Origin: Ignavibacteriales bacterium
GTDB taxonomy: Bacteria > Bacteroidota > Ignavibacteria > Ignavibacteriales > Ignavibacteriaceae
Assembly: GCA_020061465.1 (NCBI GenBank)
Contig: JAGUYG010000030.1
Location: 1 to 64,000, forward strand
Length of the DNA: 64,000 bases
Reading direction: 5' to 3'
Part shown: positions 4,047 through 63,473 of the stretch, piece after piece
How positions within the stretch are numbered: position 1 is the first letter of the stretch
Layout: each line of letters opens with the position of its first letter
Translations under genes and position numbers: made by a program
The notes under the pieces: generated by a model
What the model was told of the DNA's origin: nothing
What the model saw: only the letters and a program-made list of their open reading frames with translations
Databases searched by the model: none

Positions 4047-5432
4047 TTACGGTATCACCTCGTTGTCATCTTCTTCGTCTTCTTCTTCTAACGAGAGCTT
4101 ATCAATTGGCTTATAACCAACATTCGAATCGCTGGTAACAAGACTTATTTTTCCGTTATCAATACTTTTATACAGTAGATCATTTTCTATTATATAATAG
4201 AATTGCGTTCTAAATTCTTCCAGAGAGATTCCGCAGGTAGCCGCATATTTTGCAAGTTCATGGGGGTCTTCAAAATCCGCCTGATTAAGTCTTAACATAT
4301 AACGCCGTGCAACATAAAAAGTTTCGGAAGAAGGATCTACCATTCGTACCCTGGTTTTTTTTGTAATGGGATCTAATATATCATTAAAGTAAAGCGGTAC
4401 AAATCTTCCGTTCTGAATAGAAACCATTGCACCGCTGCCTCCTTTAAGAATAAATTGTGCGGCGGAAAAACCTAAGTCTCTGGTGTATTCCATATCGAAA
4501 GGAATCGGATCGGCACAGCGTAACTCGTAACCAATATTCTTTGCCACAATTGTAGTTTTAATTCCGAATTGTTTTAACCGCTCTTGAACCCGGTATTTTA
4601 AGATTTCACCAAAGTTTACCTCGGCAATACGGATATTATTATGCGCGTCGCGTTCAATATTTACAAGAACTTCCATGTCTTGTGGATTAAGATGCTCAAC
4701 CAATCCTTCAGCAAGTATCGCCACTCCGTCTGACCTGCCATAGCTTAGCCTTTTAATAATCGCTCCGACGAGTACATCAACTATATGAGAAAATTTTATT
4801 TTGGAACCCGGAAATTCCTCAGGTATAACTGTAAGAGTTGCACCGCTGGCTTTTCCTATACCCAATGCAAGATGACCTGCTTTTCTGCCCATCGTAACCA
4901 CAAAGTACCAGCGCGATGTGGTTTGAGCATCAACCATCAAGTTCTTCACCACTTCAACGCCGATGTGCCGTGCGGTCTGAAATCCGAATGTAGGAATTCC
5001 GTGCGGCAGGTCTAAATCATTATCAATGGTTTTGGGTACATGAACAACTTTAATGCGTCCGGCTGCCATTTCGTCTACCTTTAATGCACTATATGCGGTA
5101 TCATCGCCGCCAATGGTAATCAATTTATCAACGTTTAATCTAAGCAGCGATGTAACTGTATTCTCGAGGTATTTTTTATCCTTTGTTGGATTGTCTCTCG
5201 CAATGCCGATGTATGAACCGCCGCGAAAATGAATGCGGCTTACGTTGTGAATTGTTAGTTCTCTGTAATGAGAGATGTCCCCTTGCATAATCCATTTAAA
5301 ACCGTCTCTTATTCCTAATACTTCTACTCCTTCCACAACAGCGCGGATTGTAGCTGCACCTATTACGCTGTTAATACCGGGTGCCGGTCCGCCGCCGACA
5401 AGGATTGCTAACTTTTTTGGAGCAATTGACAT
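4047..5432 (-). CDS. 6-phosphofructokinase, probably pyrophosphate-dependent
   Basis: The 461-residue protein phosphorylates fructose 6-phosphate to the 1,6-bisphosphate in glycolysis. The nucleotide/phosphate loop is GGGPAPGIN (residues 13-21), followed by GGDDT (108-112) and PKTIDND (133-139) with the catalytic aspartate. ATP-dependent enzymes have Gly where this protein has Asp111 and Lys134; the Asp plus Lys pair is the established signature of the pyrophosphate-dependent type, which makes the step reversible. MGRKAGHLAL follows as expected. The C-terminal tail is very acidic (EEEDEEDDNE). The gene stands alone, with a repeat-rich gap upstream. The fold is certain, and the PPi specificity is inferred from the two residues. 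Confidence 0.92.
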   Translation of the reverse strand: MSIAPKKLAILVGGGPAPGINSVIGAATIRAVVEGVEVLGIRDGFKWIMQGDISHYRELTIHNVSRIHFRGGSYIGIARDNPTKDKKYLENTVTSLLRLNVDKLITIGGDDTAYSALKVDEMAAGRIKVVHVPKTIDNDLDLPHGIPTFGFQTARHIGVEVVKNLMVDAQTTSRWYFVVTMGRKAGHLALGIGKASGATLTVIPEEFPGSKIKFSHIVDVLVGAIIKRLSYGRSDGVAILAEGLVEHLNPQDMEVLVNIERDAHNNIRIAEVNFGEILKYRVQERLKQFGIKTTIVAKNIGYELRCADPIPFDMEYTRDLGFSAAQFILKGGSGAMVSIQNGRFVPLYFNDILDPITKKTRVRMVDPSSETFYVARRYMLRLNQADFEDPHELAKYAATCGISLEEFRTQFYYIIENDLLYKSIDNGKISLVTSDSNVGYKPIDKLSLEEEDEEDDNEVIP

Positions 5433-16802: not shown

Positions 16803-16900
16803 AATGTTCAATGTTCAATACTAAATTTTCAACATTCAAATCCCATCGAGAATAAATGAATATTGAGAGTTGAAAATTGAGCATTGAGAATTTATTCAAT
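16803..16900. repeat. ATTGAA-phased inverted repeat element, copy 1
   Basis: The left arm is a run of TTCAATGTTCAATACT-like sixmers and the right arm is ATTGAGAGTTGAAAATTGAG, so the whole folds into one long imperfect hairpin around a TCCCATCGAGA core. Three more copies lie in the same gene cluster (21408, 21895, 28507). It separates arsD from arsA without breaking either gene. Confidence 0.7.
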
Positions 16901-20996: not shown

Positions 20997-21419
20997 ATGA
21001 AAAAAAGAATCTTAATACTCTGCACAGGTAACTCCTGCCGCAGCCAGATGGCGGAAGGATTTCTGAAATCATTTGATGGTAATCTTGAAGTTTATTCGGC
21101 GGGAACCAAACCTGCAGAAAGAGTAAATCCATTTGCTGTTAAAGCGATGCAGGAAGTTGGACTTGATATCAGTAATGGTGTTGCTGAAGATGTTGAGAAA
21201 TATCTTTCGCAGTCTTTTGATTACGTAATAACAGTTTGTGATAATGCAAAAGAGACCTGTCCGGTTTTTATGGGAAAAGTAGGAAAGCAGCTTCACATCG
21301 GCTTTGAAGATCCAGCAGAAGCAACCGGCTATGAAGAAGAAATTCTTGCTGTGTTCAGAAAAGTAAGAGATGAAATAAAAAAAGAGTTCAAGAAATTTGT
21401 TCAGCAAATTGAATATTGA
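20997..21419 (+). CDS. arsC: Arsenate reductase ArsC, thioredoxin-coupled type
   Basis: The 140-residue enzyme reduces arsenate to arsenite. It belongs to the low-molecular-weight phosphatase fold: ILCTGNSCRSQMAEGF gives the P-loop with Cys9 and Cys14, and VCDNAKETCPVF gives Cys81 and Cys88, matching the Cys10/15/82/89 relay of the Staphylococcus aureus enzyme, which is recycled by thioredoxin. Two thioredoxin-like genes lie downstream at 27838 and 28083. The last residues (QQIEY) and the stop lie inside a repeat element, so the natural C-terminus may have been remodelled by that insertion. Confidence 0.95.
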   Translation: MKKRILILCTGNSCRSQMAEGFLKSFDGNLEVYSAGTKPAERVNPFAVKAMQEVGLDISNGVAEDVEKYLSQSFDYVITVCDNAKETCPVFMGKVGKQLHIGFEDPAEATGYEEEILAVFRKVRDEIKKEFKKFVQQIEY

Positions 21420-21501
21420 GTGTTGAAAATTGATTATTGAAAATTTTTTAATTGTCTGAAAAACAATCAATGTTCAACGATCAATGTTCAATGCTCAATA
21501 A
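21408..21501. repeat. ATTGAA-phased inverted repeat element, copy 2
   Basis: The left arm starts inside the end of arsC (AATTGAATATTGAGTGTTGA) and the right arm is ATCAATGTTCAATGCTCAAT. The arms pair across an ATTGTCTGAAAAACAAT core. It forms the left border of the four-helix-bundle gene. Confidence 0.7.
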
Positions 21502-21528
21502 ACAATAACCAATTTTTGAGGAACAAAT

Positions 21529-21900: not shown

Positions 21901-22009
21901 AAATTGAGAGTTGAGAATTGATTATTGTCCGAAGGACTCCTTTGGAGAAAATTTTCTAATCAGATAAGAAATGCTCAATGTTCAATGCTCAATAAACAAT
22001 GTTCAATAA
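21895..22009. repeat. ATTGAA-phased inverted repeat element, copy 3, with nested palindrome
   Basis: The left arm is TTGAAAATTGAGAGTTGAGA and the right arm is TGCTCAATGTTCAATGCTCA. The core holds a second palindrome, TCCGAAGGACTCCTTTGGA at 21928-21946. The element reaches up to the ribosome site of the ACR3 gene and borders the four-helix-bundle gene on its right. Confidence 0.72.
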
Positions 22010-22022
22010 AAAAGGAAAAAAT

Positions 22023-28478: not shown

Positions 28479-28506
28479 GGTATAAGGTATATATTAACAT
28501 ATTAAT

Positions 28507-28592
28507 AATTGAGTATTGAACATTGAATATTGAAAATTTTCTCCAACGGAGTCCTTCGGCAATAATCAATTTTCAACTCTCAATTTTCAATT
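28507..28592. repeat. ATTGAA-phased inverted repeat element, copy 4, with nested palindrome
   Basis: The left arm is ATTGAGTATTGAACATTGAA and the right arm is TCAATTTTCAACTCTCAATT. The core holds CTCCAACGGAGTCCTTCGGC at 28541-28560. The architecture is the same as in copy 3. It separates the thioredoxin gene from ccdA. Confidence 0.72.
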
Positions 28593-45477: not shown

Positions 45478-46293
45478 CTATTTAATAACATTTTCGAACT
45501 TTCTCCAGTGCTTTCTCATCTTTCTCCACACATCCTCAAATTCAGGGATATCTTTGATTTGATTTACCAGGTGGTCATTCCATTGACGTTTAAATATTTC
45601 TTTCTTGTTTTGAACTGTCTTCGTTAACTCATTCGGGTTTAGATTCTTAAACCTGGTCTTCTCCTGAAAGTCATAAACAAATTCTTCAATGTCCTTGTTC
45701 TCTATTTCAAACAGGTACCAAAGATCATATAAATCTCTTGGCATTGTCCTTTGCAATAATGATCTCATTTTCTCTGTAATAATTTCACCAAGAGTATAGC
45801 TCAGGATCTTGAAACCGTCTTTCAGATCAGAATATTCATTATGTACAATCTTTTCAAAAGGATCACTACAAAGCTTCTCGTCATTCGCAATATCTACTTT
45901 AATACTTTTATTTGTCCCTATTCCACTTAACGGACCTGAATAACCTAAGTAGAAATTATAATTTCCAGTTTGATGTTCTGTTTCGTCTTGTATTTTCAGA
46001 GTAATCCTGGCTTCTTTCATTACCAACTCAATAAGTTCTTCAAAGTGTTTGTTAATTTCTTTGGTAATATAGTCATTACCCTTAAATGTAAAGTCTAAAT
46101 CTTCAGATAAACGGTAATTATGGAAATATATTTTTCTTAATGCTGTTCCGCCCTTAAAAACTAATCTCTCTTTTAAATACCTGATTTCTGATATTCCCTT
46201 TAACGTCCATCCAATAACATAGTCTTTCTCAATCTGAGTATCCCGTACCCCAAGCCTATGAGCAATTCTTTGTATGTCTCCCGGTTTTATCAT
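45478..46293 (-). CDS. abiEii: AbiEii-family nucleotidyltransferase toxin
   Basis: The 271-residue protein is the toxin of a type IV toxin-antitoxin pair. It has the nucleotidyltransferase core FKGGTALRKIYFHNYRLSED and LDFTF, and downstream IKVDIANDEK and SYTLGEIITEKMRSLLQRT, then PRDLYDLWYL, all diagnostic of AbiEii/MenT-like enzymes, which modify tRNA ends with NTPs. The antitoxin gene ends two bases before its start. Its role would be abortive infection after phage attack. Confidence 0.92.
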   Translation of the reverse strand: MIKPGDIQRIAHRLGVRDTQIEKDYVIGWTLKGISEIRYLKERLVFKGGTALRKIYFHNYRLSEDLDFTFKGNDYITKEINKHFEELIELVMKEARITLKIQDETEHQTGNYNFYLGYSGPLSGIGTNKSIKVDIANDEKLCSDPFEKIVHNEYSDLKDGFKILSYTLGEIITEKMRSLLQRTMPRDLYDLWYLFEIENKDIEEFVYDFQEKTRFKNLNPNELTKTVQNKKEIFKRQWNDHLVNQIKDIPEFEDVWRKMRKHWRKFENVIK

Positions 46294-46295
46294 AG

Positions 46296-47114
46296 TTAGG
46301 TCAAAATAGAATTTACAGCAGTGTCAATTCCAACATTATCAATTATCCTCCACTCAGAATGATGTTTACCTTGTTTTGGCAACGAAGGATCAAGTAATGT
46401 GTACGAATTGCTAAGCTTAGATTTGATTTCATACGTAATCGGTTGCAAGATATCAAGTTGCTTTAAAATAAACCCTAATCGTTTATATACAACCTGTGCA
46501 TCAAACTTTTCAAGATACATTAGAATTTTATCGGTATTAATTTTTTCCCTGCTCTTATAAATTGCCTTAATAATCTCGGTTATTCCATTAGCATAGTTTG
46601 GCTTATAGAGGCAATCAACAAAGGTTTTTTCAAGATCACTGCAATAGACTTTATTGAAATCATCAATCCAGGTTTTTTCATAACCGAAGAATCTTTTTTT
46701 ATTTAAAGTTATAAATTCAAATTTTACTTTTTTTACAATCTGATACTTAGGAACAATCTGTTTTTCTGTAACTGCCTGCTCAGTTAGCGAAGGTTGTGTA
46801 ATCAATCCGTGAATATCAAGTGCGCTGTAAAAACCAATATAGTATGCCTGTGGTTCAGCAATAGCTTGCGCAGCTAAATGCCAATTTGGAAAGTATTCTT
46901 CACTATTTTTTTCATACGGAATTACATTGTAGAGTCCATCTTTAATCCGGAGTATCAATCCTCTTTTAGTCATATCGGCGAGTAATTTACGCACAGCGTC
47001 TGGTTCGCTTGAACTCAGGATTTTCATTGCTTCGTTAAGTGTAAAGAACTGTTTATCATTCTTTATGAGGGTATTTAATAGTTCTGATGAACGATATGAG
47101 ATATGCTTTTTCAT
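46296..47114 (-). CDS. abiEi: AbiEi-family antitoxin and autorepressor
   Basis: The 272-residue protein has an N-terminal winged-helix domain (FTLNEAMKILSSSEPDAVRK, LLADMTKRGLILRIKDGLYN) and the larger AbiEi C-terminal domain (FYSALDIHGLITQPS, KVYCSDLEKTFVDCLYKPNY). It blocks the toxin and represses the shared promoter. Two palindromes upstream (47123-47141 and 47185-47205) fit the known mode of AbiEi, which binds two inverted repeats cooperatively. Confidence 0.92.
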   Translation of the reverse strand: MKKHISYRSSELLNTLIKNDKQFFTLNEAMKILSSSEPDAVRKLLADMTKRGLILRIKDGLYNVIPYEKNSEEYFPNWHLAAQAIAEPQAYYIGFYSALDIHGLITQPSLTEQAVTEKQIVPKYQIVKKVKFEFITLNKKRFFGYEKTWIDDFNKVYCSDLEKTFVDCLYKPNYANGITEIIKAIYKSREKINTDKILMYLEKFDAQVVYKRLGFILKQLDILQPITYEIKSKLSNSYTLLDPSLPKQGKHHSEWRIIDNVGIDTAVNSILT

Positions 47115-49408: not shown

Positions 49409-52400
49409 TCACTCTCCAAAAATCTCCTCCTGTCCATAGTTTATTTGCTTTTCCTTCACAACAGAAGCTTTGGTTTTCTTCTTCCCTTTCTTCTCCCACA
49501 ACCCCTTCGCAACTTCTTCTGCATGTATTTTGTGGTTGAGTTCTAATAGTCTTTTTAGAATTTCTTTGCGGGCTTCTGGGGAAATGGTGTAACGGATTCT
49601 GTCGTTTTCTGGAAGGTAATCTACTTCATAGAAATCGTGGGCTAAGTTTATGTCTATCCAGCCATAAGCTTTTAGGACTGCCTCATCCATTTGTTTGTGG
49701 AGTGCTCTTAGTTTTTCTATTCTTTGTATTGCTTCTTCCATTGGTATTTGCAGTTTAGCACTTTTAAATTCTCTTATATCCATTGCAGATTGAACATTGT
49801 CCATTGAACATTGAGGGTTGTGAAACAAGTTGTATGTTTTTGTTAAACCAAGCTGCATATCCAGCATTAACTGGCGGCGGAACTCGTGGTATTCTAATCC
49901 TATCTTTTCAAGCTCTGCTTCGGTTTCTTTTGTGAGGTTTTGGGGGAAAGGGTAAGTTTCGAAAACTTCGGTAGGAGCATATCTTAAATCACTTTTCATA
50001 GTTGAAGCATATTTCCAAACCCAGTGGTTATGCATTGTAGATTGCAAAACAGCAAATTTATCGTATGTTTGGAATGAGACAACTATAGTTCCAATACCAT
50101 AGACTAAACCATTGGGAACAAAACAAAATGCAACCGTTTTACTTGTTTGAGCTATTACCATAACTCTAGTTAAACCATTAATAGTCTCGTACAATTCAGG
50201 TCTAAATCTCTCATATTGCCACCATTTTTCTTTTGCGTTCTTTGAATAAGTGATCTTTTCCCTCATGGGTTTGACAGATTTATATATAATATCGAAGCAT
50301 TCAGGAAAGTTATCTTTACAATAATTTTCATCCCAATTAAAAAAATTAATTGCCCATCTATTTGGTTTCTGTTCTGGACCAGTATTTAAATCTTCACCAT
50401 TAAGAAACTTATACAGAACTTTTTCATTATCTTTATTAGAGAGCAATTTTTTCGCTTGTATCTCATCAACTAAGAAACCATCGCCAAGTATTGTAGTGCC
50501 CTGGAAACTTTTCCCTTCATTTTGTTTTAATTGAGACGGATTTCCTAATGTCCTCGTGTCGTCAAGATATGCACTTAAGTAGTAAACTTTATTATGGCCA
50601 AGAAATCTTTCTTTCTTCCAATCACCTTTATATATCGAAACAAGAGAAACCTCTACAGCAGCAACTCCAGGCCACCTCATTGAGCGAATAGCAAAATTTA
50701 TATTTCCACCATTATTTATAATTACATCTAATCCACCTTCACGTGCATTGCCTTGTGCGATTGTATTTGTTGCAAGTAATGCCTGGAAACCTTTTGGTCT
50801 TAGCAGTTCATAAATTCTTCTAAAAAAATAAGTAACTAAATCGCAGCTTCCTGCCGGTGCATATTCACTTTTAACCCAATTCAAAAATTCATCACCAAAT
50901 GTTCCGCTTAATCTTTGTCCGCCTAAAAATGGCGGATTACCAAGAATACAATCAAATCCCGTCTTCGTCCCGTTACTCGGGACTTCGCCGGGCAAGCCAC
51001 CTTCAGAAAACACCTCAGGAAATTCTAAAAACCAATGGAAGAATTTTTTCTTAGCCGCAACTGCTCTTGCAGTGCTTATTTGTCTTTCGTGTTTAGCTCG
51101 TTCGCCAGCAAAAATTCTGAAATATGTTTTGTCTGTAACTAGAAAATCTTTGTTTTCAAGAGTCTTTTGAATAAAGAATTGAGCAACCTGTAAATCAGCA
51201 ACTTGTTTCAAACTCCACCAATCTTCACCTCTTAAAACATCGAACTCTTCTGACTTCTTTTTAACAGCTTCAACAGTATTATCAGGTAAAGAATTGAAGC
51301 TTTTAAACTTCACCGAAATTTTATTAAGCTTTTCAATTACTACATCATTATCAGTCAGTGTATATTGAGAACGGTTACTAATATCTGTTTTGTTCTGTCT
51401 TCTGAAAGATGCGGCAATATCCTTATCATCACCGGGCAGAGTTTTAAATGCTTCTGTGGCAATTCCGTTCTGCAGCTCTTCAATGCGTGCAAGTCCAACA
51501 ATAGAATCACCACATTTAATTTTATGGTCTAAAAAGTTAAGCGGCATTCCGGGATTGTGAGCTTCCAGCCATAAAGCAACTTTACAGAGTTCAACAGCGA
51601 GAGGATTTTTATCAACTCCGTAAATGCAATGGTTAATAACATCTCGTATTGCCTGTCTGTATGGTTCGGGAGCGGGCTGGTCTTCGCCAGTTCTGACTTT
51701 TGTAAGTTCCTGTGCAATTCTTCTTGCTGCGGATAAGAGGATGTGTCCGCTTCCGCAGGCAACATCGCAGACTTTGATGGAGAGGAGTGCTTGTTCTTTA
51801 GCAGCTACATCTGAACCCCCCTTCGTCCCCCCTTTGGTAAAGGGGGGAGTCTGCGTGTTTTTTAATTTATCTTCGATTACATAATCGAGTGAGTGTTTAA
51901 TTAATGGCTGAACTAATTCTTCAGGTGTGTAATGTGAGCCGGAGGATGAGCGTTCACTTCCCTTTTCAAAACCAAATCTTATTTCATTTCCATCATCATA
52001 GATTGTTGGTTTTTGTTCAAGCAGTCCTTCATAAACAGAACCGAACTCTTCAACATTCAACGCAGCATAATTTACACGGATAATGGTTTTAGTTTCGGGG
52101 TTTTCAAACAGACTTAAGTTTCTTACACATTCCAACAAGGAATGATTATCGAGATTTGAATCGCTGAGAATACCGATAGAACCATAATCAAAAAGATCAC
52201 CATTAAGAGGATAAATTCCCAGCTTTGAAGCAAGTCTTTCATCACCAAATATTTTAAAAGTATTCCTGAGAGCAATCCACAGGTCTTCCAGCTTTTCATC
52301 AAAAAAGAAAATATTTTCAGAAAGCTTTCTTATTCTTGTAATGCTGTAGAAGTTATAGTAGATATCTCTCAGATAATCTAATTTATCTGCTTCGGCAGAC

Positions 52401-53323
52401 CTTTCATCCTTCTTATTCGGATAAATAATATCTCTTTCTTCAAGCACCATCAGGAACAGAACACGGTAAATAAATCTTAACAGGTATTGATAAAACTTCT
52501 CATCGTCTATTTCCTTAGACCTGATTTTACTCCGCAATTCATCATTAGCAGGATGCTTCAAGAATCCGTTTGCAATAGTCATAATAGATTTTTCAACTGC
52601 GATGCTCAGCTTCTCTCTTATCCTTGCGCCAGCTTCAAGCGATAGTTGATGATACTGCTCAATAATTGATGCATCGCCTTCACCAAATTTCTGCGGCATT
52701 CGTGAAGAGTGAATTAAGCGATACATAATTGAAAACTCAGCAAAGAGATCATCTTCCATCATCTGGAGAAGATCAAACTCAAGGTAGGTTAACCGGATAA
52801 GCTTGCCTGAATCTCTGAGCAGTCGCAACTGGTAACCGTTTGTAACAATTCCATAAAGATGTTCGGTTATGTTCAGATATTCCTGGATAAGTGCGTGTGG
52901 AGAAAGTCGAGGTCCGGTTTTATCTTTTCTTCTGTCAAGACTATCATTACATCCGACAATATGCGCAGGAAAGCCGTCAAGATTAGAAGCACGGTGACTG
53001 ATAGCAAAGCTGTTCCCGTTAACTTCCTCTGCTTTTGAAAGAGACAGGTTATAACCTAAAAATTCAAGTAAAGGAACAATCCAGAATTTTCTTGTTTCGG
53101 TTGTGCCGCTCTCTTCGGGAGATATTTTTTCAATCCTTCTTTTAAAAATATTCCATTGATCTTTTGCATCAGCCCAGGCAGCGGCAATTTCATCCTTCAG
53201 GCGTATCCCTTTAGCAAAACCAAAGTCTTGCGGCAATTGATATGAAATCTCATTCGATTCCAGCCGGTCGAAAATCTCCGGTGAGATTATTTGTCCTTCG
53301 ATATGTATGGAAGTGGTTTTCAT
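49409..53323 (-). CDS. Eco57I-type N6-adenine DNA methyltransferase (DISARM MI/PglX-like)
   Basis: The 1304-residue protein has an N-terminal helical region that resembles type IIG enzymes, the AdoMet motif I VCDVACGSGHILLSAARRI near residue 518, CIYGVDKNPLAVELCKVALW and the catalytic motif IV NPPF near residue 793 (CILGNPPFLGG). Target recognition and C-terminal parts follow. Methyltransferases of this build serve in DISARM (DrmMI), BREX (PglX) and type IIG systems, marking host DNA. No clear nuclease motif is seen in its N-terminus. The frame carries three in-frame repeat insertions: 51813-51856, 50957-50998 (just before NPPF) and 49781-49820. It is upstream of the broken PD-(D/E)XK gene and downstream of the decamer island. 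Confidence 0.9.
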   Translation of the reverse strand: MKTTSIHIEGQIISPEIFDRLESNEISYQLPQDFGFAKGIRLKDEIAAAWADAKDQWNIFKRRIEKISPEESGTTETRKFWIVPLLEFLGYNLSLSKAEEVNGNSFAISHRASNLDGFPAHIVGCNDSLDRRKDKTGPRLSPHALIQEYLNITEHLYGIVTNGYQLRLLRDSGKLIRLTYLEFDLLQMMEDDLFAEFSIMYRLIHSSRMPQKFGEGDASIIEQYHQLSLEAGARIREKLSIAVEKSIMTIANGFLKHPANDELRSKIRSKEIDDEKFYQYLLRFIYRVLFLMVLEERDIIYPNKKDERSAEADKLDYLRDIYYNFYSITRIRKLSENIFFFDEKLEDLWIALRNTFKIFGDERLASKLGIYPLNGDLFDYGSIGILSDSNLDNHSLLECVRNLSLFENPETKTIIRVNYAALNVEEFGSVYEGLLEQKPTIYDDGNEIRFGFEKGSERSSSGSHYTPEELVQPLIKHSLDYVIEDKLKNTQTPPFTKGGTKGGSDVAAKEQALLSIKVCDVACGSGHILLSAARRIAQELTKVRTGEDQPAPEPYRQAIRDVINHCIYGVDKNPLAVELCKVALWLEAHNPGMPLNFLDHKIKCGDSIVGLARIEELQNGIATEAFKTLPGDDKDIAASFRRQNKTDISNRSQYTLTDNDVVIEKLNKISVKFKSFNSLPDNTVEAVKKKSEEFDVLRGEDWWSLKQVADLQVAQFFIQKTLENKDFLVTDKTYFRIFAGERAKHERQISTARAVAAKKKFFHWFLEFPEVFSEGGLPGEVPSNGTKTGFDCILGNPPFLGGQRLSGTFGDEFLNWVKSEYAPAGSCDLVTYFFRRIYELLRPKGFQALLATNTIAQGNAREGGLDVIINNGGNINFAIRSMRWPGVAAVEVSLVSIYKGDWKKERFLGHNKVYYLSAYLDDTRTLGNPSQLKQNEGKSFQGTTILGDGFLVDEIQAKKLLSNKDNEKVLYKFLNGEDLNTGPEQKPNRWAINFFNWDENYCKDNFPECFDIIYKSVKPMREKITYSKNAKEKWWQYERFRPELYETINGLTRVMVIAQTSKTVAFCFVPNGLVYGIGTIVVSFQTYDKFAVLQSTMHNHWVWKYASTMKSDLRYAPTEVFETYPFPQNLTKETEAELEKIGLEYHEFRRQLMLDMQLGLTKTYNLFHNPQCSMDNVQSAMDIREFKSAKLQIPMEEAIQRIEKLRALHKQMDEAVLKAYGWIDINLAHDFYEVDYLPENDRIRYTISPEARKEILKRLLELNHKIHAEEVAKGLWEKKGKKKTKASVVKEKQINYGQEEIFGE
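49781..49820. repeat. ATTGAA-family repeat inside the methyltransferase frame
   Basis: The stretch contains ATTGAACATTG and CATTGAACATTGAGGG, the same sixmer pattern as the arsenic cluster elements. In the gene it encodes NPQCSMDNVQSAMDI, near the C-terminal region, with the frame kept. Confidence 0.65.
50957..50998. repeat. CCCGTTACTCGGG palindrome insertion in the methyltransferase frame
   Basis: CCCG-TTACT-CGGG followed by CTTCGCCGGGC encodes about 14 residues (GGLPGEVPSNGTKT) between a Phe-Pro-Glu-Val segment and the GFDCILGNPPF motif. The insert lies in front of the catalytic motif and does not break it. Confidence 0.6.
51813..51856. repeat. CCCCCTTTGGTAAAGGGGG palindrome insertion in the methyltransferase frame
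   Basis: The G/C-rich palindrome CCCCCTTTGGTAAAGGGGGG encodes TPPFTKGGTKGGS in the protein. This peptide is a known sign of a repeat that has entered a coding frame in many bacteria. It lies between a helical segment and motif I, where a loop can tolerate it. Confidence 0.75.
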
Positions 53324-54182
53324 AAAATGTTGTTGTTACTTCGCTACTTCTTCCCGTATATTTTTAACTGTAACGTTAAGGATGTTTTTTAGTAAACTTT
53401 TTTAATCTATTACAATGTTCTTGAACTCTCTCTAATCTCTCTCTTACAAAGAGAGAGACTTATTATCACTTATGTCTTTACATTTTAATTTCTGTCAAGA
53501 TAATTAATACAAAGTCAATTCTACCAATAAGCCCTTCTCTTTTTAAGAGAAGGGGTGGGATGAGTTCCTTATTACTCCTGCACAACTCCTGTACTACTCC
53601 TGCATTTTACTTGGGCATTCCTTAGGCATATTTACTGCGACGTTACTGCGACGAGCTACGACATTTACTGCGACATGCTGCCGCATACTGCTGCACACAC
53701 TGCCAATTTTTTTACTACGAAGTTACTGCGAAGCTACTGCGAAATGCTGCGAAACTCTACTCCGTCATTACTCCGTCATACTCCGACACAGCTGCGACAT
53801 TTACTGCGGCATGCTGCCGCATCTACTGCCGCAAGCTGCCGCATTTTTGCTTAGACTTTTACTCTTGCATTACTCTTGCAAAGGTTGTGCAGAATAAATG
53901 CAAAGGTCGTGCGGGAGAAAATGCAAGACTGAATTTCTTTTGGTCATTCATTCTTTCTGCTTCGACATGCTTCGACATGCTTCGACATTTCTACAAGTTC
54001 TACTGCCGCAAGCTGCCGCATACTGCCGCATTTTTCACTTGGGCATTACTTAAGCAACACTTAGGCATTACAACATATGCATCGCTTATGCATCATAATT
54101 GCCAAATTTTACTCCTGCACTACTCCCGCATTTACTCCCGCATACTCCCGCATACTCCCGCATTCGTAACTCATCTCTTAAC
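53324..54182. other. Long noncoding gap inside the defence operon
   Basis: The gap separates the AlbA_2/HATPase gene from the methyltransferase gene. Its left part (53324-53570) is plain AT-rich sequence in which TCTCTTTTTAAGAGAAGGG forms a small hairpin near 53530. The right part is the decamer repeat island described separately. Frames across it are open by virtue of the repeats and do not encode a convincing protein. Confidence 0.7.
53571..54168. repeat. Mosaic island of degenerate 10-base repeats
   Basis: The unit is about ten bases, of form TACTNCNNCA or GCTNCNNCAT. Neighbouring units share a core that then changes along the island: TACTCCTGCA, CTTGGGCATT, TACTGCGACG, TACTGCCGCA, TACTGCGAAG, TACTCCGTCA, TACTCTTGCA, GCTTCGACAT (three times), again TACTGCCGCA, and at the right end TACTCCCGCA four times. 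Some neighbours form palindromes, such as TGCGGCATGCTGCCGCA at 53806-53822. The island ends 14 bases from the stop of the AlbA_2 gene. Confidence 0.85.
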
Positions 54183-55544
54183 TTATTCATTTTTATCTCT
54201 TATTAGTCTATACTTACCCATTGGATCTCTTATAGAGATTCCTGTCCATTCAATAAACGCAACTAATCCCTTAACATTGCGATGCACTGTACTAGGTGCG
54301 ATTCTTAGTGTATTGGAGATTTCCTCAGTCGAAGCTTCACCAACCTCAGAAAGATAGTCCAAAATTCTTTTCTGTGTTTCAGATAGTTTTAATTCAGGTT
54401 TCAATTCTTTGTCAAATTCTCTATGAAAGCTTACAATAAAACTTCCTCCAGCTTCTTTGAATTCTGGTTCTTTTATTCCTGCTTCTTTACATAATCTTAT
54501 GATGCGGTTGGTTCCTGTTCCCCATTGTTCAATATATTTAATCATATAAAAGCATTTTGCAATTGATTGATTGCGGGGAATGGAAGGGTGCTCTTTTTTA
54601 AGCTCCCCTATAGAAATATTATTTGGCAATAATCCCGGATTCCATATTTCCAACCGGTCATCAAAAATTCTTACCTGAACATTTGCTGTGCTTTCATAAT
54701 CACGATGACAAATTGCATTTATGATGGCTTCACGTAAAGCATCTTTGGGAATTTCCCATATATCTTCTCTTTCAGGTTTTCCTTTTATTAAAGCTGCAAT
54801 ATTAAGATGTTTTCTAATGAAAGTTAATACTGAAGGGACTTGTTCGATAATTGTTCCTTCAATATCCTGCATATCGGCAAAATCAACCGGCTCATTTCCT
54901 TTAAATCTTGCACATCGAACAAGTGAGTTATAAAAATGTAATTGAGGTTGTTTTGAGAATAAGAGAACGGCAGCATTTGTCAGCTTTTTACCCTTTACCA
55001 GATTTAGCTTTTTCAGAATTGATTCTGTTGATTTTGGTCCCTCAAGAATTGCGTCTCTTTCTTCTTCATACTTTCTGACAAATGATTTTATTTTCTGAGT
55101 TGATAGTTCACTTAGCTTTACAGAAGAAACTTCACTATCCCAGTATCTGGTTCTCTGCTCGTTAATAAATGATCTGATTTTTTCTGCCGAGGCTTTCTGA
55201 TTTGACTTTCCTACCCTGATAAAAACTTTATCCTTTACAAATACCGGCTTAACCGGATATTCTGGAACAAAGATTTCAATTACATCTTTAGAATTTATTT
55301 TTTGAACGGTAATATTTGGAAATACTTTGGGATCAGTATTCTGTTTTATATCTCCGGCAAGATTTTCAATAGTGTTTTTACCAACAGTAATACCTGTAAT
55401 TCTGCCGGATGGATCAATTCCAACAAGTATTTTTCCACCTCTCTTATTTGAAAACGCTGAAATTGTTTCAAGAATTTCTTCCCTTTCTGAAAGAGATGAT
55501 TTTAACTCCATTGTTTCCGATTCAGTAAATTTTCTTTTCGCCAT
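54183..55544 (-). CDS. AlbA_2 and HATPase_c_4 domain protein
   Basis: The 453-residue protein has an AlbA_2 domain (about 5-130; SETMELKSSLSEREEILETI, SAFSNKRGGKILVGIDPSGR), an HATPase-like domain (ALREAIINAICHRDYESTAN, then DDRLEIWNPGLLPN and IKYIEQWGTGTNRI) and a C-terminal winged helix (about 385-445; ISNTLRIAPSTVHRNVKGL). Such proteins are annotated as putative transcriptional regulators or RecG-like ATP-binding proteins and are frequent in defence islands. Its start shares one base with the SNF2 gene stop (TAATG), so the two are coupled. It may regulate the system or act as an extra effector. Confidence 0.88.
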   Translation of the reverse strand: MAKRKFTESETMELKSSLSEREEILETISAFSNKRGGKILVGIDPSGRITGITVGKNTIENLAGDIKQNTDPKVFPNITVQKINSKDVIEIFVPEYPVKPVFVKDKVFIRVGKSNQKASAEKIRSFINEQRTRYWDSEVSSVKLSELSTQKIKSFVRKYEEERDAILEGPKSTESILKKLNLVKGKKLTNAAVLLFSKQPQLHFYNSLVRCARFKGNEPVDFADMQDIEGTIIEQVPSVLTFIRKHLNIAALIKGKPEREDIWEIPKDALREAIINAICHRDYESTANVQVRIFDDRLEIWNPGLLPNNISIGELKKEHPSIPRNQSIAKCFYMIKYIEQWGTGTNRIIRLCKEAGIKEPEFKEAGGSFIVSFHREFDKELKPELKLSETQKRILDYLSEVGEASTEEISNTLRIAPSTVHRNVKGLVAFIEWTGISIRDPMGKYRLIRDKNE

Positions 55545-58348
55545 TATTTAACAGTTGGTAATAAAATGTAAATACCTAAAATATCCGGCGGTAAAACAGG
55601 CTCAACCACTTTGTATCTTCTTCCACCAAGTAGTTTTCTGAATCTGTCGTGTGCTTCAATCAGTTTCTCTGATCTTTGTCTTACCACACCCTTAAACAGC
55701 TCGTTGATAGAATCAAGTGAATTTATTTCACTTTCTATTAAAGTAGTCTGTCTTTGAATGGATAAATCCTTAAGCGGAAAAGCCTCTTCCAATAAATTCT
55801 TTGCTTCATCCTGAGATAAAAATGCTTTGTCCTTAACATTGCCATTATAACCCCAAAGAATCATTTCTTCAGCAACTATTTGTTTGCTGCCAGCACTTTC
55901 GCTTATGATATTCCTTACCCTTAATTGATATATGGCGGTTTTAGATTGAACTTTATCTGTAGTGATGACTGATGTCCTTGCAAGGAATTTTTGCTGCCCG
56001 TTTGATAACAATGCATTATTTAATAAGAACTGGCTAAGCTGCTCAACAAAAGGATGATTTCTGCCAATGTATTCATAACCTTCAGGCGTTGGTGAAAAGA
56101 AAGAAATCCTTACTTCATCTTTCCTGTTGAAAATAGTTTTGAAGACGAACGGTAAGTTTGTTGTATATAAAAGATAACCTTCCTTATAAGGTTTCATCTG
56201 ACCTTTGAGCAGTAAAATAGAATCCAATACAAAATTCTTTACAGTTTCCGGATCACCAATTGCCTCATCTGTATCCTTAAGATCCTGCTCAATCTCATCT
56301 ACCTTTATTGAATGCTGAGCAAATACACTATGAGTAAGCTTATCTCTTTCAGCAGCTTTTTCATAAGCTTTCGTTACCAAAACTGATTTATCCTGAATTT
56401 CTTCAAAGTCGAGATCCAGTTCAAGCTGCCTGTCTATTTTTACAGCATTTGGACTAAGAATCACAGCATTCAAAAGACTATCCATTAATGATTGACTATC
56501 TTCGGGGAAAGGAACGGATATTCCTGTTTGTTTTCTGATTTGACGTGCTTTCATTAATAAAACATTCAGGACTGCAGAATCAATCGGATTATCTTTTCCC
56601 CACAACATAAAAGCTTTTACTTTCTTTGCAGTTTGTCCAAACCTATCAACCCTGCCTTCCCTCTGCTCTAAACGATTTGGATTCCAGGGCAGATCATAGT
56701 GTAATACAGCAGTAAAATGTTTCTGTAGATTTATGCCCTCGCTAAGACAATCAGTTGCTATCAAAAGTTTTCGGTTGGATGATTCACCAAATTCATCTAT
56801 TCTTGCTTTACGTTCTTCATCAACCATTTCTCCGGTTATTACTAAAAGGTCAGTATTCTTTGGAAGCTTATCTTTATAATATTCACCCAGGTATTTTGCT
56901 GTTGGTATAAACCTGCAGAAGATTATCGGGTTATAGCCTTCTCTTATCCATTCCTTTACCACTTTCAGCGTTTCTTCAGCTTTATTGTCCTTAACATTCT
57001 CTAATCGTCTGGATATATCTCCAAGTAATTTCGCTTCATTAGATTTGAGCTCAATTTTCTCAATCAGGTTAGCAGGAGTAGCATCAGAATCAGTTTCATC
57101 ACTGTCAGCTACCGGATTAATAATTTCTTCCTGCTGCTCTTCTTCATCGGTAAGCTTCTGAGCTTTTCTTGTAAGCATCTCTATTCCTGCTGCTGGACTT
57201 GACATAACACCACGCAGCAAAGAAAGTATCGCAAAGTATTTGAACTTCTTGCGTGCGTTTTGAGCTATTTCAGAAGTATCCATTGATCGTGCGAAAGTCA
57301 AAAGATCACTGAAGATAGATTTATATTCCGGAGAGAGCGAATATGCAATTTCACCCTGTTCTCTTTCAGGGAAGTAAGTAGTCTCATGCCATTGCTGAAC
57401 ATCTACTCTTCGTCGAATAACAATATGGTTGGCTATTTCTTTTCTCTTTTCATAATCAGCTTGAACAATATCTAATGTTTCATATTCAGGATTCAATAAT
57501 CCAATCAGAGATTGAAACTCAGGTTGCTTACCACTATGTGGAGTAGCTGTCATCAGGATTAAATGTTGATTCTTTTTCTTGGCTATATCCTGAACGAGAT
57601 AATATCTTTGCTGCTGTTTGGGACTTGCACCAACCGGACGAGTGCATGTATGTGCTTCATCCACTATAATAAGTTCCGAACAATCAAGTAAAAACAAACT
57701 TCTTTTTTTATCAGATTTAATAAAATCAATTGAAATAACCTGATAGGGGTAATGCTTGAATATTGTCTGATCCCCACGAATTTTTCTGTCTAACTTAGCG
57801 GCTGTGCTGGATCTGACTATAACCGCATCAATTGAAAATTTATCTCTTAGCTCCTGCTGCCATTGATCACATAAGTGAGGTAAGCAGACAACTGCAAACC
57901 GTTTTATCTCTCCCCGATCAAGCATCTCACGCACAACCATCAGCGCTTCAATAGTTTTACCCACTCCAACATCATCAGCAATCAGTAATCGAATAACATC
58001 TTGTCTTAAAGACATCACTAATGGAACAACCTGATATGATCGTGGTCTGAATGAATAACGACCGATTGACCTGAACGGACCGGCAACATTTCTGAAAGAA
58101 AGTCTGGCAGCATTATAAAGTAACTTAGCAGTTGAGTAATTACCTAAATCATTTAAAGATGGTTTTGGAAATTGGCTTGGTTTAGGTTTTTCATCTTCAA
58201 TTGCTAAAGGAAGAAAAATTCCTGTTGTTTCTTCATCAGTTCCACCTAAAGGTTTTACAAGTAAAAGCTTTTCATCATCAGAAGGCATTACCACCCAATC
58301 ACGATTACGAAGTTTTACAAGTGAACCTGGTTGAAAGTCTGTAGCCAT
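55544..58348 (-). CDS. SNF2-like helicase, DrmD-like
   Basis: The 934-residue superfamily 2 ATPase opens with MATDFQPGSLVKLRNRDWVV and has FRSIGRYSFRPRSYQVVPLV before the Walker A loop ADDVGVGKT (124-132), then LIIVDEAHTC (about 230), LMTATPHSG, and the C-terminal helicase part with LIATDCLSEGINLQ and NRLEQREGRVDRFGQ (about 560-575). The N-terminal and helicase parts are those of SNF2-type proteins in DISARM (DrmD) and related systems, which translocate on DNA. Its start is one base behind the stop of the large helicase gene. Confidence 0.88.
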   Translation of the reverse strand: MATDFQPGSLVKLRNRDWVVMPSDDEKLLLVKPLGGTDEETTGIFLPLAIEDEKPKPSQFPKPSLNDLGNYSTAKLLYNAARLSFRNVAGPFRSIGRYSFRPRSYQVVPLVMSLRQDVIRLLIADDVGVGKTIEALMVVREMLDRGEIKRFAVVCLPHLCDQWQQELRDKFSIDAVIVRSSTAAKLDRKIRGDQTIFKHYPYQVISIDFIKSDKKRSLFLLDCSELIIVDEAHTCTRPVGASPKQQQRYYLVQDIAKKKNQHLILMTATPHSGKQPEFQSLIGLLNPEYETLDIVQADYEKRKEIANHIVIRRRVDVQQWHETTYFPEREQGEIAYSLSPEYKSIFSDLLTFARSMDTSEIAQNARKKFKYFAILSLLRGVMSSPAAGIEMLTRKAQKLTDEEEQQEEIINPVADSDETDSDATPANLIEKIELKSNEAKLLGDISRRLENVKDNKAEETLKVVKEWIREGYNPIIFCRFIPTAKYLGEYYKDKLPKNTDLLVITGEMVDEERKARIDEFGESSNRKLLIATDCLSEGINLQKHFTAVLHYDLPWNPNRLEQREGRVDRFGQTAKKVKAFMLWGKDNPIDSAVLNVLLMKARQIRKQTGISVPFPEDSQSLMDSLLNAVILSPNAVKIDRQLELDLDFEEIQDKSVLVTKAYEKAAERDKLTHSVFAQHSIKVDEIEQDLKDTDEAIGDPETVKNFVLDSILLLKGQMKPYKEGYLLYTTNLPFVFKTIFNRKDEVRISFFSPTPEGYEYIGRNHPFVEQLSQFLLNNALLSNGQQKFLARTSVITTDKVQSKTAIYQLRVRNIISESAGSKQIVAEEMILWGYNGNVKDKAFLSQDEAKNLLEEAFPLKDLSIQRQTTLIESEINSLDSINELFKGVVRQRSEKLIEAHDRFRKLLGGRRYKVVEPVLPPDILGIYILLPTVK

Positions 58349-58349
58349 A

Positions 58350-61300
58350 TTACTTTACTTTATGGAAAATATCACTTCTTTTTCTTACTAAATCTTCGAG
58401 CGAATCTTTGTAGTAAAACTCAATAACATCATATCCCTTATTTCGCAGTGCTTCTCGTTTTTTTTTGTCATCTTCCCTGACAAATTTATCATCATGAGGT
58501 GTTCCATCACAAAAGACACATGCTTTTTCATTTTTGTAATAGAAATCCGGTCTTACATAAAGATCACTAGGACTGTATTGTGCTTCATCCGGAAGTTTTA
58601 AACCACTATCAAATAAAAATTTTAAGAATTTCTTTTCTGTGCTGGAATTAGGATCAATTCTTTCTAACAAAAATTCATACTGCTCGTCATAATTTTCAAA
58701 TGCGCTTGCTCCTCTTGCTTCCATTTCGCAAATCATTAGTCGTTCGAGCTGATCTTTAATCAGATAGCGATCAATCCGCTGATGATACCACTGGTTATAG
58801 TAGTTAAGTAAATCTTCATAAGTAGCAGGTCCGGCTTTTGGATTCGTATCTTCACCATTTTGAAAATAACAAACTTTGTAAGCTTCGTTAATGACTTTTT
58901 TAAATTCATCTTTGTCACAGACTAACTGCGATAAGACACCCAAACTACCTTCAGCAGCTTCATATATTAGAATGTTTGGCCAGTCTGTTGATCCCATCAC
59001 CTCAACTCCAATTTCATTCTGCTCAACCTGATAGATATTCTCGATCGCCCTCTTCAACGCAAACTGCAGCGTGATTATAGAATCGGCTTCTAATCCATCT
59101 TTGAATGATAAAGCTTTCAAGGGGTGGATGTAAATCGCATCGGCAGTATCTTTAGTAAAAAGGCGTATCCTTCTGATATTTGTTGGATCATTGCCCTGCT
59201 CTAAATCTTTTTCACTTTTCCAGAAACCGGTCTTAATGTTAACTAAGAATCCCGGTTCTTTCTTTGACCGCCATTTTTCATTTAATTTAATGAGTGTTGC
59301 TGCAGGAATGTATCTCACTTTTAACAGAGCATCCGTTCCATCTTTAATAACGACCGTCTCAACTCTATCCTTAACTCCCTCGATTGTAAAGAAGGTTTTA
59401 ATATCATATCCCATTGATTGTCTTTCTTCCTCTTCGCAGGAGATTCTGTCTATCTGATAGCTTCTATTTTCTGAAAGTGGAAGAATGTCGGTATAAATTT
59501 CTCTTTCCTTATCAGTCTTTAAATAAACTTTTGTAAATGGACAATATTCAAGTTGGTAGTCCTCACCCATAAGAGCATAATTAGATGACTTACTAACTTT
59601 CATTCGTTCAATTTTACTTTCCATTTCGTGTTGAATCATCTGGTTGATCTTGTATCTTGCGCCATCATGATAAATAATGTTACCGGGTCCAAACTCTCGT
59701 AATGCTAAAAATCTCGGACGTGAAACAAACTCACCATCTTCACCTTTTGGTATATAAGCTCTAACAGGAAGCCTAGTAAAATTATATCCTGGTAAAAATC
59801 CTTCTGAAGCCAGGTATCTATAGGGATAGAATTCAGAAAAGTTTTTATTTGATTCAGAGTCTCTGTTCATCAGAAGATCAATTTGCTTATTTGCCTGTTT
59901 TTCTTCGGCATAAGCTCTTTTTCTCTCTTCAGAATAGTTTGAATAAATGGGATTATTAATGATTTCCTGAGCACGGGCTCTTTGCCTGATTGCAGATTTG
60001 TATATCTCTCTCCATCTGTTTAATGCTTCATCAAACTTTCTGGGAATATCATCTATATTCTTTCTTATCCAATCTTCTTTATACCAGTAAGTTTTAACAA
60101 GTTCATTCTCAATCTGGTTGATAACATTTTTAAAATACATTCTAACAATATTCTTTCTCTCGGTATTGAAACTTATACTCCCTCTAACGCTATCTTTTAG
60201 TTTCAGGTTAACTAAGTCATCAATAACAACGAGATCACCAATTGAATAATCAAGTGCATTTATCCCTGCTTTGGATAAATAAATCGCATTAAGATGAGTT
60301 AACATTAACTCTTCATTCAACAAATCAATCCTTGAAGGACGAACTACACCGGAAACCATGTCTGCCGAATTCTTAAAGTAATGTTTATCATGAGGCGAAT
60401 AATTTGAGCAGAATGTTAAAACAAGCGCAGCTTGCCCGCTTCTCCCTGCTCGTCCGCTTCTTTGAGCATAATTTGCGGGACTTGGAGGCACATTTCTTAA
60501 ATGAACAATATTCAGAGTAGCAATATCAATTCCCAATTCCATTGTAGGTGAACAGGAAAGCAGACTAATGTCCCCATCTCTGAATTGCTTCTCTCTGATC
60601 TTCCTGTCCTCATTTTTAATTTGTGCAGTGTGTTCCCTGGCTTCAATTATCTTCAGCTTAGAAAAATCCTGTTGATAGAAATCTCTGAAATATTTATTGA
60701 TCTTGGGAGTATAGTCTTTATAAGTCTGAAGCCGTATTTTATCCGGAATGACTGTTTCACCATCACCGATCTTCCATAAAATTGTTTTAACCTCCAGACG
60801 ATATAATTTTAACTTTGTTTTTCCCTGATTTATTTCTTTTAGTGATAAGTACTTTGCCTGAACTAATTTATCAAGAAGCTTATAGACAAAATCTGTATAG
60901 TTATTTTTATCAATTACTTCATCCCGCTTTTTAGCTTCTGCTTTAAGAAATTTTCCGAAATAGCTTTGAGCACCAATGCTTGCTGTATAGATTTTCTGAT
61001 AATTAGCTGTTAAAGTTTCAACCCTCATATAGTATGGCAGATCAATCTTATCATTTTCATCCAATCCCCACTCCGGTTTTATCTCTTCTCTAATGACACT
61101 TGAAATCCGGGTCACTTCATTCGGTTCCAGCATTGTATGAGCCAAAGCATAATTTTTCCTGAAATAATCAATTACCTGAATTAAGAAATCATATCTTTCC
61201 TCAACATTCATTCTACTTAATAATGTAAGGTCTTTCCAGAAATCCTTTACTTCACAGGTCTCTTTCAAATGCTTGTATGCTATTTGTAAAAGTCCGCATT

Positions 61301-63473
61301 GTTCTAAATTAGGAAGGGTAACTCTCCAGCCTCTTTTTAAATCAGAGAGAATCCTGTACGTAAGATAATTCTTAAATGCATTTTCATTTTCTTCAGTCTG
61401 AAATGGTAATGGTGAAGGATTTTTTGCATATTGTTCCTGTTTAAGATTTAATGCCTGAAATACTTGTTGTGTAATTGTGGAATGATCGAGTGTTTTACTC
61501 TGGCTCTGATTTAGAGCCTGATAGATGGCAGCTCGTAATTTACCCACACGATAAAAATCATTAAAATGTCCGGCTTGAAGCGCTGCATCCTGCCTGTTAT
61601 CGGTAAAACTTAATAACTTCTGTTCATCATATTTCTGATTCTCATCTTCAAGAGCTTTGATAGCCGAGTAAGCAAGAATTGTAGTAGCCGTGCTTCTACC
61701 TTCAGTTCCCAACTTTGTTAATTTTGTACCTTCTGCGGTTTTTCGATCATAGAAAGTTCCTGATGTCGGATCGAAAAGTAAAGGAGCGGTCATAAACCAA
61801 CCTTTATAAGCAAATTCATTTTCATTATCTGAAAATTTTCCAAATTCATCAAAAGAAATTCTCTGTGGTAACTTGTCTTTGTACTCTTTTTTAACATCAG
61901 CTTCACCATTAGAGCGAATCTTCAACCAGGAATCGGGTAAGTTTAATAACTGCTCGCTGCTCCATATCGGTTCTTCCTGTTCTGTAATAATGTATCCAAG
62001 CTCAACATTCTCCTCTTCCTCCTCTGGAATCCTCTGATTAAATTCTCTTGGTTCGAGTATTTTTTTGCTTATATCTTTTTTAACACAGATAAATTCCATG
62101 CCGGAAGTTCTGCTGAAAATAACCGGATATAGTGGTTTTTTCTCGCCCTCATCATCAATAACAATTCCTGCCGGATCAAGTGTTATTATTCGTTCTTCAG
62201 ATGATTCTAAAGTAACGTATACTGTCCCTGTCTGTGCAATAAACTGATGTACTTTAAACGGCAGAATAGCTGAATCAGTTTTTCCTTCTTTTTTGTTGAT
62301 TTCATTTACGAGAATTAAAAACTGATTAATTCTCGATTCGCATAATTCTATTCCTAATCCGGTGTTGAGACTAAGCAGCTTAATAATCTCATCTCTCATC
62401 AATGGTTTCTTTCGAACCAGTTCTCCATCTGCTGTATCAAGCGCTATTTCATTCTCAAACCAGCAAGCTAAATTCAACTTAATAAGCTCTTTTTTTGTCA
62501 ATCCATTTTCAAAACCTGATTCTAATTCACGAATTAATTCAGATTTAACAACTTTCGATTTTCCATCACTAACCGATCTGATTAATTTTTCATTTATTAT
62601 CTGATCGATTTCAAACTTCTGACCAAATATTTTTTCAGCTACTTCAACAACTTTTTGTTTCTGTTCAATTATTGAAGTTCCGGAGACCATTGTGGCTGAT
62701 GTTCCGATTGATACGATCTTATTTTTACATTTAGAATTAATTCTCCTGATAAGCATTGAGACATCAGAGCCCTGTCTGCCTCTGTAAGTATGCAGTTCAT
62801 CAAAAACCAGGAATCGGAGATGATCAGCAATTGAATTCCGAAAATCTCTTTCCCCTAACCTCGTCATAATCAATTCGAGCATCATATAGTTGGTTAATAA
62901 AATATTAGGTAGCTCTTTAAGAACTTCTTCTTTCTCTGTTTTGGATTCCTGTCCGGTATATTGACGGAATGTAATAGGGAATTGCTTTCCTGTGTTCTCT
63001 TCATAGTTGTTTTTATATTTATCAATTTCAAGGAATTGAGAGTTAATAAGTGCATTCATTGGATAAACAATTAACGCAGTTATTCCTTTCTTACGACCTG
63101 GATTAGAGAAAAGATAGTTGAAGATTGAGCCAATGAAGGTGAGAGATTTTCCTGAACCCGTCCCGGAAGTAACAATGAAATTACGTTCGTTACTGCCAAG
63201 TTTAAGTGCCTCAACCTGATGTTTATATAACCTGTTTACATTAAATACATTTTTAAGCTCAGGATGCATGATATTCTTATCACATAATTCATCAATTGAT
63301 TCAGCCGAATCAAAAAATGGATTAAACTGTATTAACGGTTGTGGCCAAAGTTTTCTTGAAGTGAAGTAATCATCAACAGCATCACGGATTCGTTTATCTG
63401 AAATCTCAAGAAAGCTGGAAATATACTTTGAGTATTCATCTATTATTGAATTATGGACATTGAAGATATTCAT
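58350..63473 (-). CDS. Giant DEAD/DEAH helicase with DUF1998-like region and Vsr-like nuclease tail
   Basis: The 1707-residue protein has the Walker A loop SGTGSGKS (103-110), DELHTYRGRQGSDV (225-238), IGTSATM, and in the second helicase domain LLSCSPTMELGIDIATLNIV and YAQRSGRAGRSGQAALVLTF (about 1000-1025). DUF1998-like sequence follows (NILIYEAAEGSLGVLSQLVC, about 1545-1565), as in DrmB and DruE. The last 70 residues (YVRPDFYYKNEKACVFCDGT, then DDKKKREALRNKGYDVIEF) look like a Vsr/DUF559-type endonuclease. The layout resembles DISARM DrmA plus DrmB in one chain, or Druantia DruE, with a nuclease added. It is the first gene of the operon; a promoter should lie in 63474-63860. Confidence 0.9.
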   Translation of the reverse strand: MNIFNVHNSIIDEYSKYISSFLEISDKRIRDAVDDYFTSRKLWPQPLIQFNPFFDSAESIDELCDKNIMHPELKNVFNVNRLYKHQVEALKLGSNERNFIVTSGTGSGKSLTFIGSIFNYLFSNPGRKKGITALIVYPMNALINSQFLEIDKYKNNYEENTGKQFPITFRQYTGQESKTEKEEVLKELPNILLTNYMMLELIMTRLGERDFRNSIADHLRFLVFDELHTYRGRQGSDVSMLIRRINSKCKNKIVSIGTSATMVSGTSIIEQKQKVVEVAEKIFGQKFEIDQIINEKLIRSVSDGKSKVVKSELIRELESGFENGLTKKELIKLNLACWFENEIALDTADGELVRKKPLMRDEIIKLLSLNTGLGIELCESRINQFLILVNEINKKEGKTDSAILPFKVHQFIAQTGTVYVTLESSEERIITLDPAGIVIDDEGEKKPLYPVIFSRTSGMEFICVKKDISKKILEPREFNQRIPEEEEENVELGYIITEQEEPIWSSEQLLNLPDSWLKIRSNGEADVKKEYKDKLPQRISFDEFGKFSDNENEFAYKGWFMTAPLLFDPTSGTFYDRKTAEGTKLTKLGTEGRSTATTILAYSAIKALEDENQKYDEQKLLSFTDNRQDAALQAGHFNDFYRVGKLRAAIYQALNQSQSKTLDHSTITQQVFQALNLKQEQYAKNPSPLPFQTEENENAFKNYLTYRILSDLKRGWRVTLPNLEQCGLLQIAYKHLKETCEVKDFWKDLTLLSRMNVEERYDFLIQVIDYFRKNYALAHTMLEPNEVTRISSVIREEIKPEWGLDENDKIDLPYYMRVETLTANYQKIYTASIGAQSYFGKFLKAEAKKRDEVIDKNNYTDFVYKLLDKLVQAKYLSLKEINQGKTKLKLYRLEVKTILWKIGDGETVIPDKIRLQTYKDYTPKINKYFRDFYQQDFSKLKIIEAREHTAQIKNEDRKIREKQFRDGDISLLSCSPTMELGIDIATLNIVHLRNVPPSPANYAQRSGRAGRSGQAALVLTFCSNYSPHDKHYFKNSADMVSGVVRPSRIDLLNEELMLTHLNAIYLSKAGINALDYSIGDLVVIDDLVNLKLKDSVRGSISFNTERKNIVRMYFKNVINQIENELVKTYWYKEDWIRKNIDDIPRKFDEALNRWREIYKSAIRQRARAQEIINNPIYSNYSEERKRAYAEEKQANKQIDLLMNRDSESNKNFSEFYPYRYLASEGFLPGYNFTRLPVRAYIPKGEDGEFVSRPRFLALREFGPGNIIYHDGARYKINQMIQHEMESKIERMKVSKSSNYALMGEDYQLEYCPFTKVYLKTDKEREIYTDILPLSENRSYQIDRISCEEEERQSMGYDIKTFFTIEGVKDRVETVVIKDGTDALLKVRYIPAATLIKLNEKWRSKKEPGFLVNIKTGFWKSEKDLEQGNDPTNIRRIRLFTKDTADAIYIHPLKALSFKDGLEADSIITLQFALKRAIENIYQVEQNEIGVEVMGSTDWPNILIYEAAEGSLGVLSQLVCDKDEFKKVINEAYKVCYFQNGEDTNPKAGPATYEDLLNYYNQWYHQRIDRYLIKDQLERLMICEMEARGASAFENYDEQYEFLLERIDPNSSTEKKFLKFLFDSGLKLPDEAQYSPSDLYVRPDFYYKNEKACVFCDGTPHDDKFVREDDKKKREALRNKGYDVIEFYYKDSLEDLVRKRSDIFHKVK

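Follow-up and report, generated by a model that had tools for sequence, protein, structure and literature searches.

The island of short repeats within the 64,000-nucleotide stretch analysed here (the window) is an enlarged version of a small element that lies behind bacterial Schlafen-type genes in many phyla. As shown below, members of this gene family often carry sense direct repeats, with a motif of 8-11 bp recurring about one helical turn apart, at or past the stop codon. The island is probably an expanded cis-element of the Schlafen gene upstream of it, consisting of binding sites for that protein's own winged helix (wHTH) that were duplicated locally and are held in part by selection. 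As defence effectors, bacterial Schlafens are widespread and have been recognised only recently; a literature search that excluded preprints returned no account of their control.

Architecture of the island and its surroundings

The island interrupts an operon on the minus strand with the order DruE-like helicase, SNF2 helicase, Schlafen, island, methyltransferase. The operon is otherwise tight, as a preliminary description of this DNA had stated, with overlaps or 1-base gaps between the genes upstream of the island; the gap between the Schlafen and methyltransferase genes is 859 bases. The features are as follows.

58350..63473, minus strand: DruE-like helicase, 1707 aa, upstream gene
55544..58348, minus strand: DpdE/DrmD-like SNF2 helicase, upstream gene
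54183..55544, minus strand: Schlafen-type protein of 453 aa with SLFN_AlbA_2 (PF04326), HATPase_c_4 (PF13749) and a C-terminal winged helix (Pfam, structure models); owner of the array
53573..54163, minus strand: array of about 41 units whose N4 cores differ by block (EM units, block structure)
53882..53948, plus strand: break in the array that contains one or more inverted units (TGCGGGAG on the plus strand; inverted repeats)
53338..53349, minus strand: possible stray unit TAGCGAAGTAA, right before the methyltransferase start (seen in the sequence)
49409..53323, minus strand: DrmMI / MmeI-like DNA methyltransferase, 1304 aa; downstream gene and candidate target of regulation

An island of about 600 bases at 53571-54168, made of ten-base repeats with drifting cores, had been described. 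The island is real and so are the drifting cores, but the minus (operon) strand gives the better reading of the unit; there an EM scan resolves 54163-53573 into 41 units of about 11 bases reading TG-N4-AGTA or TG-N4-AG-Y-A, with spacings of 10 (13 times), 11 (10 times) and 12 (6 times) bases. A second correction concerns 53882-53948, which mostly lacks sense units and leaves an 87-base gap between unit starts. The pattern RCTNNNNCR matches 35 times in the island and 34 times in the best 600-base bin, compared with at most 8 in any bin elsewhere. Mini-ORFs, with each unit read as ATG-NNN-NAG-stop, were ruled out because several blocks are without ATG. The 10-12 base units are in contact and spacers are absent, so that the island does not have the form of a CRISPR array.

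The four core columns of the unit are variable (up to 1.75 bits), while columns 7-8 read AG in 41/41 units, an invariance that is partly selected because units were picked with the motif model. Across 33 adjacent pairs of units there are 0 changes in the A and G columns and 6-10 in the core columns. Neighbouring units had been noted to be alike and distant ones different; accordingly, 15/40 adjacent pairs have identical cores compared with 2.9 in shuffled order (p 2e-4), and core identity, 0.70 at lag 1, is down to the background level of about 0.41 by lag 3. As adjacent cores match and identity decays within three units, new units arise as copies placed next to the original and diverge afterwards. 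Growth of the array by local duplication and subsequent mutation, suggested in the preliminary description, is thereby confirmed.

Local duplication would also suit a slippage zone by which the downstream methyltransferase becomes phase-variable. This is highly improbable, as the array lies outside any reading frame, a promoter scan of the window stayed near chance level and most arrays in the Schlafen family have only a few units.

The window holds other repeats. Between the island and the methyltransferase gene, 53424-53570 is a separate, hairpin-rich repeat with two perfect 10-base hairpins, CTCTCTCTT..AAGAGAGAG and CCCTTCTCTT..AAGAGAAGGG. The first of these is also present at the extreme ends of three other contigs of the same genome (L072, L074, L078), as a dispersed repeat that interrupts assembly would be, and is missing from the orthologous junctions of L013 and L016. 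Short repeats of another kind, AT-rich heptamer arrays of the TTGAAAATTGAGT type, occur at 16857-16892, 21408-21506, 21970-22010 and 28492-28592.

The operon itself adjoins an AbiEi/AbiEii type IV toxin-antitoxin pair (45478-47114). The linker of its methyltransferase (residues about 490-515) is an insertion hotspot, with the insert TPPFTKGGTKGG in the window and inserts of about 0.5 kb at the same site in L014 (9175-9743, with period-7 repeats), L054 (14566-15068) and L026 (15987-16516). The cargo at the junction of helicase and methyltransferase varies by genome (L065, L019, L021, L058, L064), the Schlafen gene being one such cargo.

Repeats at the 3' ends of Schlafen-type genes

The 616-base island has no second match in its 4.2 Mb genome, where a two-unit pattern returned only the island and one chance match. 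The preliminary description had proposed a search for the decamer profile across the class; in 391 genomes (390 of them relatives), which are samples, a three-unit pattern likewise matched only the island apart from one match by chance, with chance matches judged by eye. A dispersed repeat is ruled out by these searches, which return this site alone besides the chance matches.

A search with the neighbouring helicase across the genome collection yielded 56 loci. Two orthologous operons with a Schlafen-type gene (77-78% identity) have arrays at the same junction and in the same frame, with 5 and about 7 units compared with 41 in the window, and these arrays are found nowhere else in those genomes. 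In related operons without a Schlafen gene (e.g. L014, L015) the helicase abuts the methyltransferase and the array is absent; thus the array is not tied to the operon as such, and the possibility that it is a property of the DruE/DpdE/DrmMI operon was ruled out. In L013, a stretch of about 65 bases from the end of the Schlafen gene occurs twice (4740-4890), and a stop separates the copies; the tail is thus itself a site of duplication.

In five other genomes, homologues that are without the other operon genes (52-55% identity, four families) are also followed by TG-N4-AGTA-like arrays, with other cores in the same AGTA frame (GTCCGAGTAAT, TTCCGAGTAGG, TGTCGCAGTAG and GTCATAGTAAA, for example), which begin at the stop codon or within a few bases of it. 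Homologues of 35% identity and PF13749 proteins of other phyla have distinct units of their own (TTCATAAAAG, GGCTCATAAAG, GGGGCAACAAA, TTGGCGATTA, TTGTTTGACCG). The link to a defence operon drawn earlier therefore holds only indirectly, as the array accompanies the Schlafen gene, also outside such operons. Viral contigs yielded no homologue, and phage records held only distant ones.

For family statistics, proteins were clustered at 85%, giving 124 genes, and repeated 8-mers were scored from 45 bases before the stop to 200 after it, with at least 3 pairs counted as positive. By this measure 40% of the family genes have 3' repeats compared with 12% of 299 ends of other ORFs from these loci (MWU p 9e-11); as further controls, 9% of the family genes were positive in their 5' flanks and 3% in their interior. 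The commonest dominant spacing across family arrays is 11. One family member (L156) has repeats inside the reading frame, which encode the C-terminal tail VGERVGERVGERVGEKVGEKVGEK in 12-base units. The next gene is sometimes not a defence gene but a permease, an acyl-CoA dehydrogenase or a HAL-like gene, as judged by eye.

It had been allowed that the island could be a decaying satellite, in which case homologous islands should lie at random intergenic sites with no conserved pattern or position. Instead, the position 3' of Schlafen genes and the motif frame are conserved across genomes. A functionless slippage hotspot at the end of Schlafen genes would account for the block structure and for the change in copy number (5, 7, 41), both of which show slippage. 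However, position and motif frame are the same across families, the AG columns are spared from mutation, which is not expected of a plain decaying satellite though their invariance is somewhat selected, and 11-bp pairs are kept in cyanobacterial homologues while the flanks diverge. A neutral origin is thus very unlikely.

The winged helix, its motif and a possible mechanism

The Schlafen protein in the window scores above the gathering threshold for both PF04326 (83.5 bits, cut-off 25.3) and PF13749 (90.8 bits, cut-off 26), and its C-terminal winged helix is recognised by HTH_24 above the Pfam cut-off. The protein is a putative RNase, in which the acidic residues E8 and E13 are invariant across three orthologues; in the VGID motif, D is replaced by E in L013. 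While the whole-protein structure model has a pLDDT of 39, the last 74 residues (380-453) are modelled as a winged helix of three helices and two strands with a pLDDT of 76. The nearest structures to this model are mostly DNA-binding winged helices, with the AspA-centromere DNA complex first and MarR-type regulators also among them; the Foldseek matches are weak (best E 3e-3) because winged helices are small.

The repeat motif is shared within a winged-helix clade and differs between clades. In clade A it is TG-N4-AGTA, while clade C has TKTGA/TTGA pairs 11 bp apart. Repeats were present in 8/8 close members of clade A (9/13 of all assigned), 16/18 of clade B and 20/25 of clade C when the motif criterion is included (11/25 by 8-mers alone), compared with 15/68 outside these clades. 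Motif A pairs were observed 34 times in clade A 3' ends, with 1.0 expected, and 0 times in clade C; motif C pairs numbered 23 in clade C, with 0.3 expected, and 0 in A and B. Within 600 bp past the stop the ratio of sense to antisense was 41:0 (A) and 29:0 (C), and neither motif was enriched in 5' flanks. In leave-one-out scoring the motif of the own clade was chosen for 8/8 members of A, 17/21 of C and 11/18 of B, although similarity within a clade is partly due to descent, as genes of one clade share ancestry. The common motif of clade B is weak, since its units differ greatly (5/18 with z>2.5). Specificity of the motif for the clade of the adjacent regulator, as in operator arrays, is accordingly clear for A and C and weak for B.

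Half-sites of clade C lie 11 bp apart 26 times, and a second pair often follows 78-112 bp further on. Inter-pair distances in four clade C loci (L253, L136, L188, L258) cluster at about 77, 88, 99 and 110, multiples of 11 and not of 10.5; this long-range phasing looks strong but is no proof because the distances are not independent. In plasmid loci of Desulfosarcina, Providencia, Aliarcobacter and Actibacterium the second pair sits shortly before the next defence gene.

Among the origins offered in the preliminary description, a predicted protein-binding array is the best supported. Under this scenario, the winged helix of the Schlafen protein would bind the units, with several protein molecules lined up along one face of the DNA. 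Units would be copied by local slippage, selection would keep the contacted bases, and the uncontacted core would drift block by block. Less confidently, the bound array in the window might control expression of the downstream methyltransferase; in several plasmid loci the candidate second operator pair is placed immediately before the next defence gene. Units are absent 5' of the Schlafen gene, which does not point to ordinary autoregulation. Since the next gene is not always one for defence, regulation of the neighbour can explain the array only in part, and the element probably serves the Schlafen at least partly. The strictly sense orientation counts against this reading in that it would also suit a role at the RNA level.

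That role could be filled by repeats in the transcript that are bound by the AlbA_2/Schlafen RNA-binding domain or act as a 3' UTR. Besides their strict orientation, repeats overlap the stop codon, and Schlafen domains act on RNA according to PMC12839542. An RNA structure had also been suggested for the island, but six arrays share no fold, giving unrelated shapes with z-scores from +0.5 to -4.8 (the island, -2.0), and an Rfam search gave one chance match only, below threshold. Helical-turn spacing and exact 11-bp pairs suit double-stranded DNA, and the motif tracks the winged-helix clade, though the whole protein co-varies with clade. An RNA element is therefore quite unlikely.

Alternatively, the array could be a tether or guard, holding the Schlafen RNase inactive at its own locus via the winged helix until loss or modification of the DNA during infection frees the RNase. 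The array follows the Schlafen gene whatever the neighbour and is 3' rather than 5' of it. Proteins with the arrangement Schlafen RNase - minimal histidine kinase - wHTH, to which family members belong, are described as effectors closely linked with BREX (PMC12839542), and Photorhabdus is released from its growth arrest at 36 C when TrlG, a protein of the AlbA_2 - HATPase_c_4 type, is lost (PMC7554251). However, the second operator pair before the next gene in several loci better suits an operator, and a tether is unlikely. A further proposal, rather speculative, is that Schlafen genes include, as an integral part, a fast-diversifying docking array with which the protein co-evolves, each protein answering only to its own array, which would act as a local sensor or leash for a growth-arresting RNase and not as an ordinary promoter operator.

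If the island is an expanded binding-site array of the Schlafen gene, the conserved 3' cis-element would provide a direct handle on these proteins, as the motif can be read from sequence and predicts the binding site of each. It would make Schlafen regulation accessible to simple binding and deletion experiments, and would add a bacterial example in which a DNA-binding protein diverges in step with its repeated site.

Comparison with known systems

The neighbouring genes in the window match DrmMI, DruE and DpdE/DrmD models, as in DISARM, Druantia and Dpd operons, but the array is missing from related operons without the Schlafen gene. With heptamer STRRs and REP/MITE elements the array has in common short intergenic units in local blocks, but it occurs at one place only in the genome rather than in many copies and is tied to one gene family. 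The SLFN_AlbA_2 - HATPase_c_4 - wHTH arrangement is that of prokaryotic Schlafens (COG2865-like, TrlG). The 3' repeat array is an addition made here, being unmentioned in the available parts of PMC12839542 and PMC7554251, and no earlier description of repeats near AlbA_2/Schlafen genes was found in the literature searched, which excluded preprints and most subscription journals.

The array differs from operator arrays, iterons and parS-like centromere repeats in lying at the 3' end of its gene and in occurring on chromosomes as well as plasmids, and the operon is without the replication or partition genes that would accompany iterons or parS. Like these systems, it consists of direct repeats of about a helical turn adjoining the gene for a winged-helix protein, and the likeness to plasmid centromere repeats extends to the protein, as the best fold match of the Schlafen winged helix is the AspA-DNA centromere complex.
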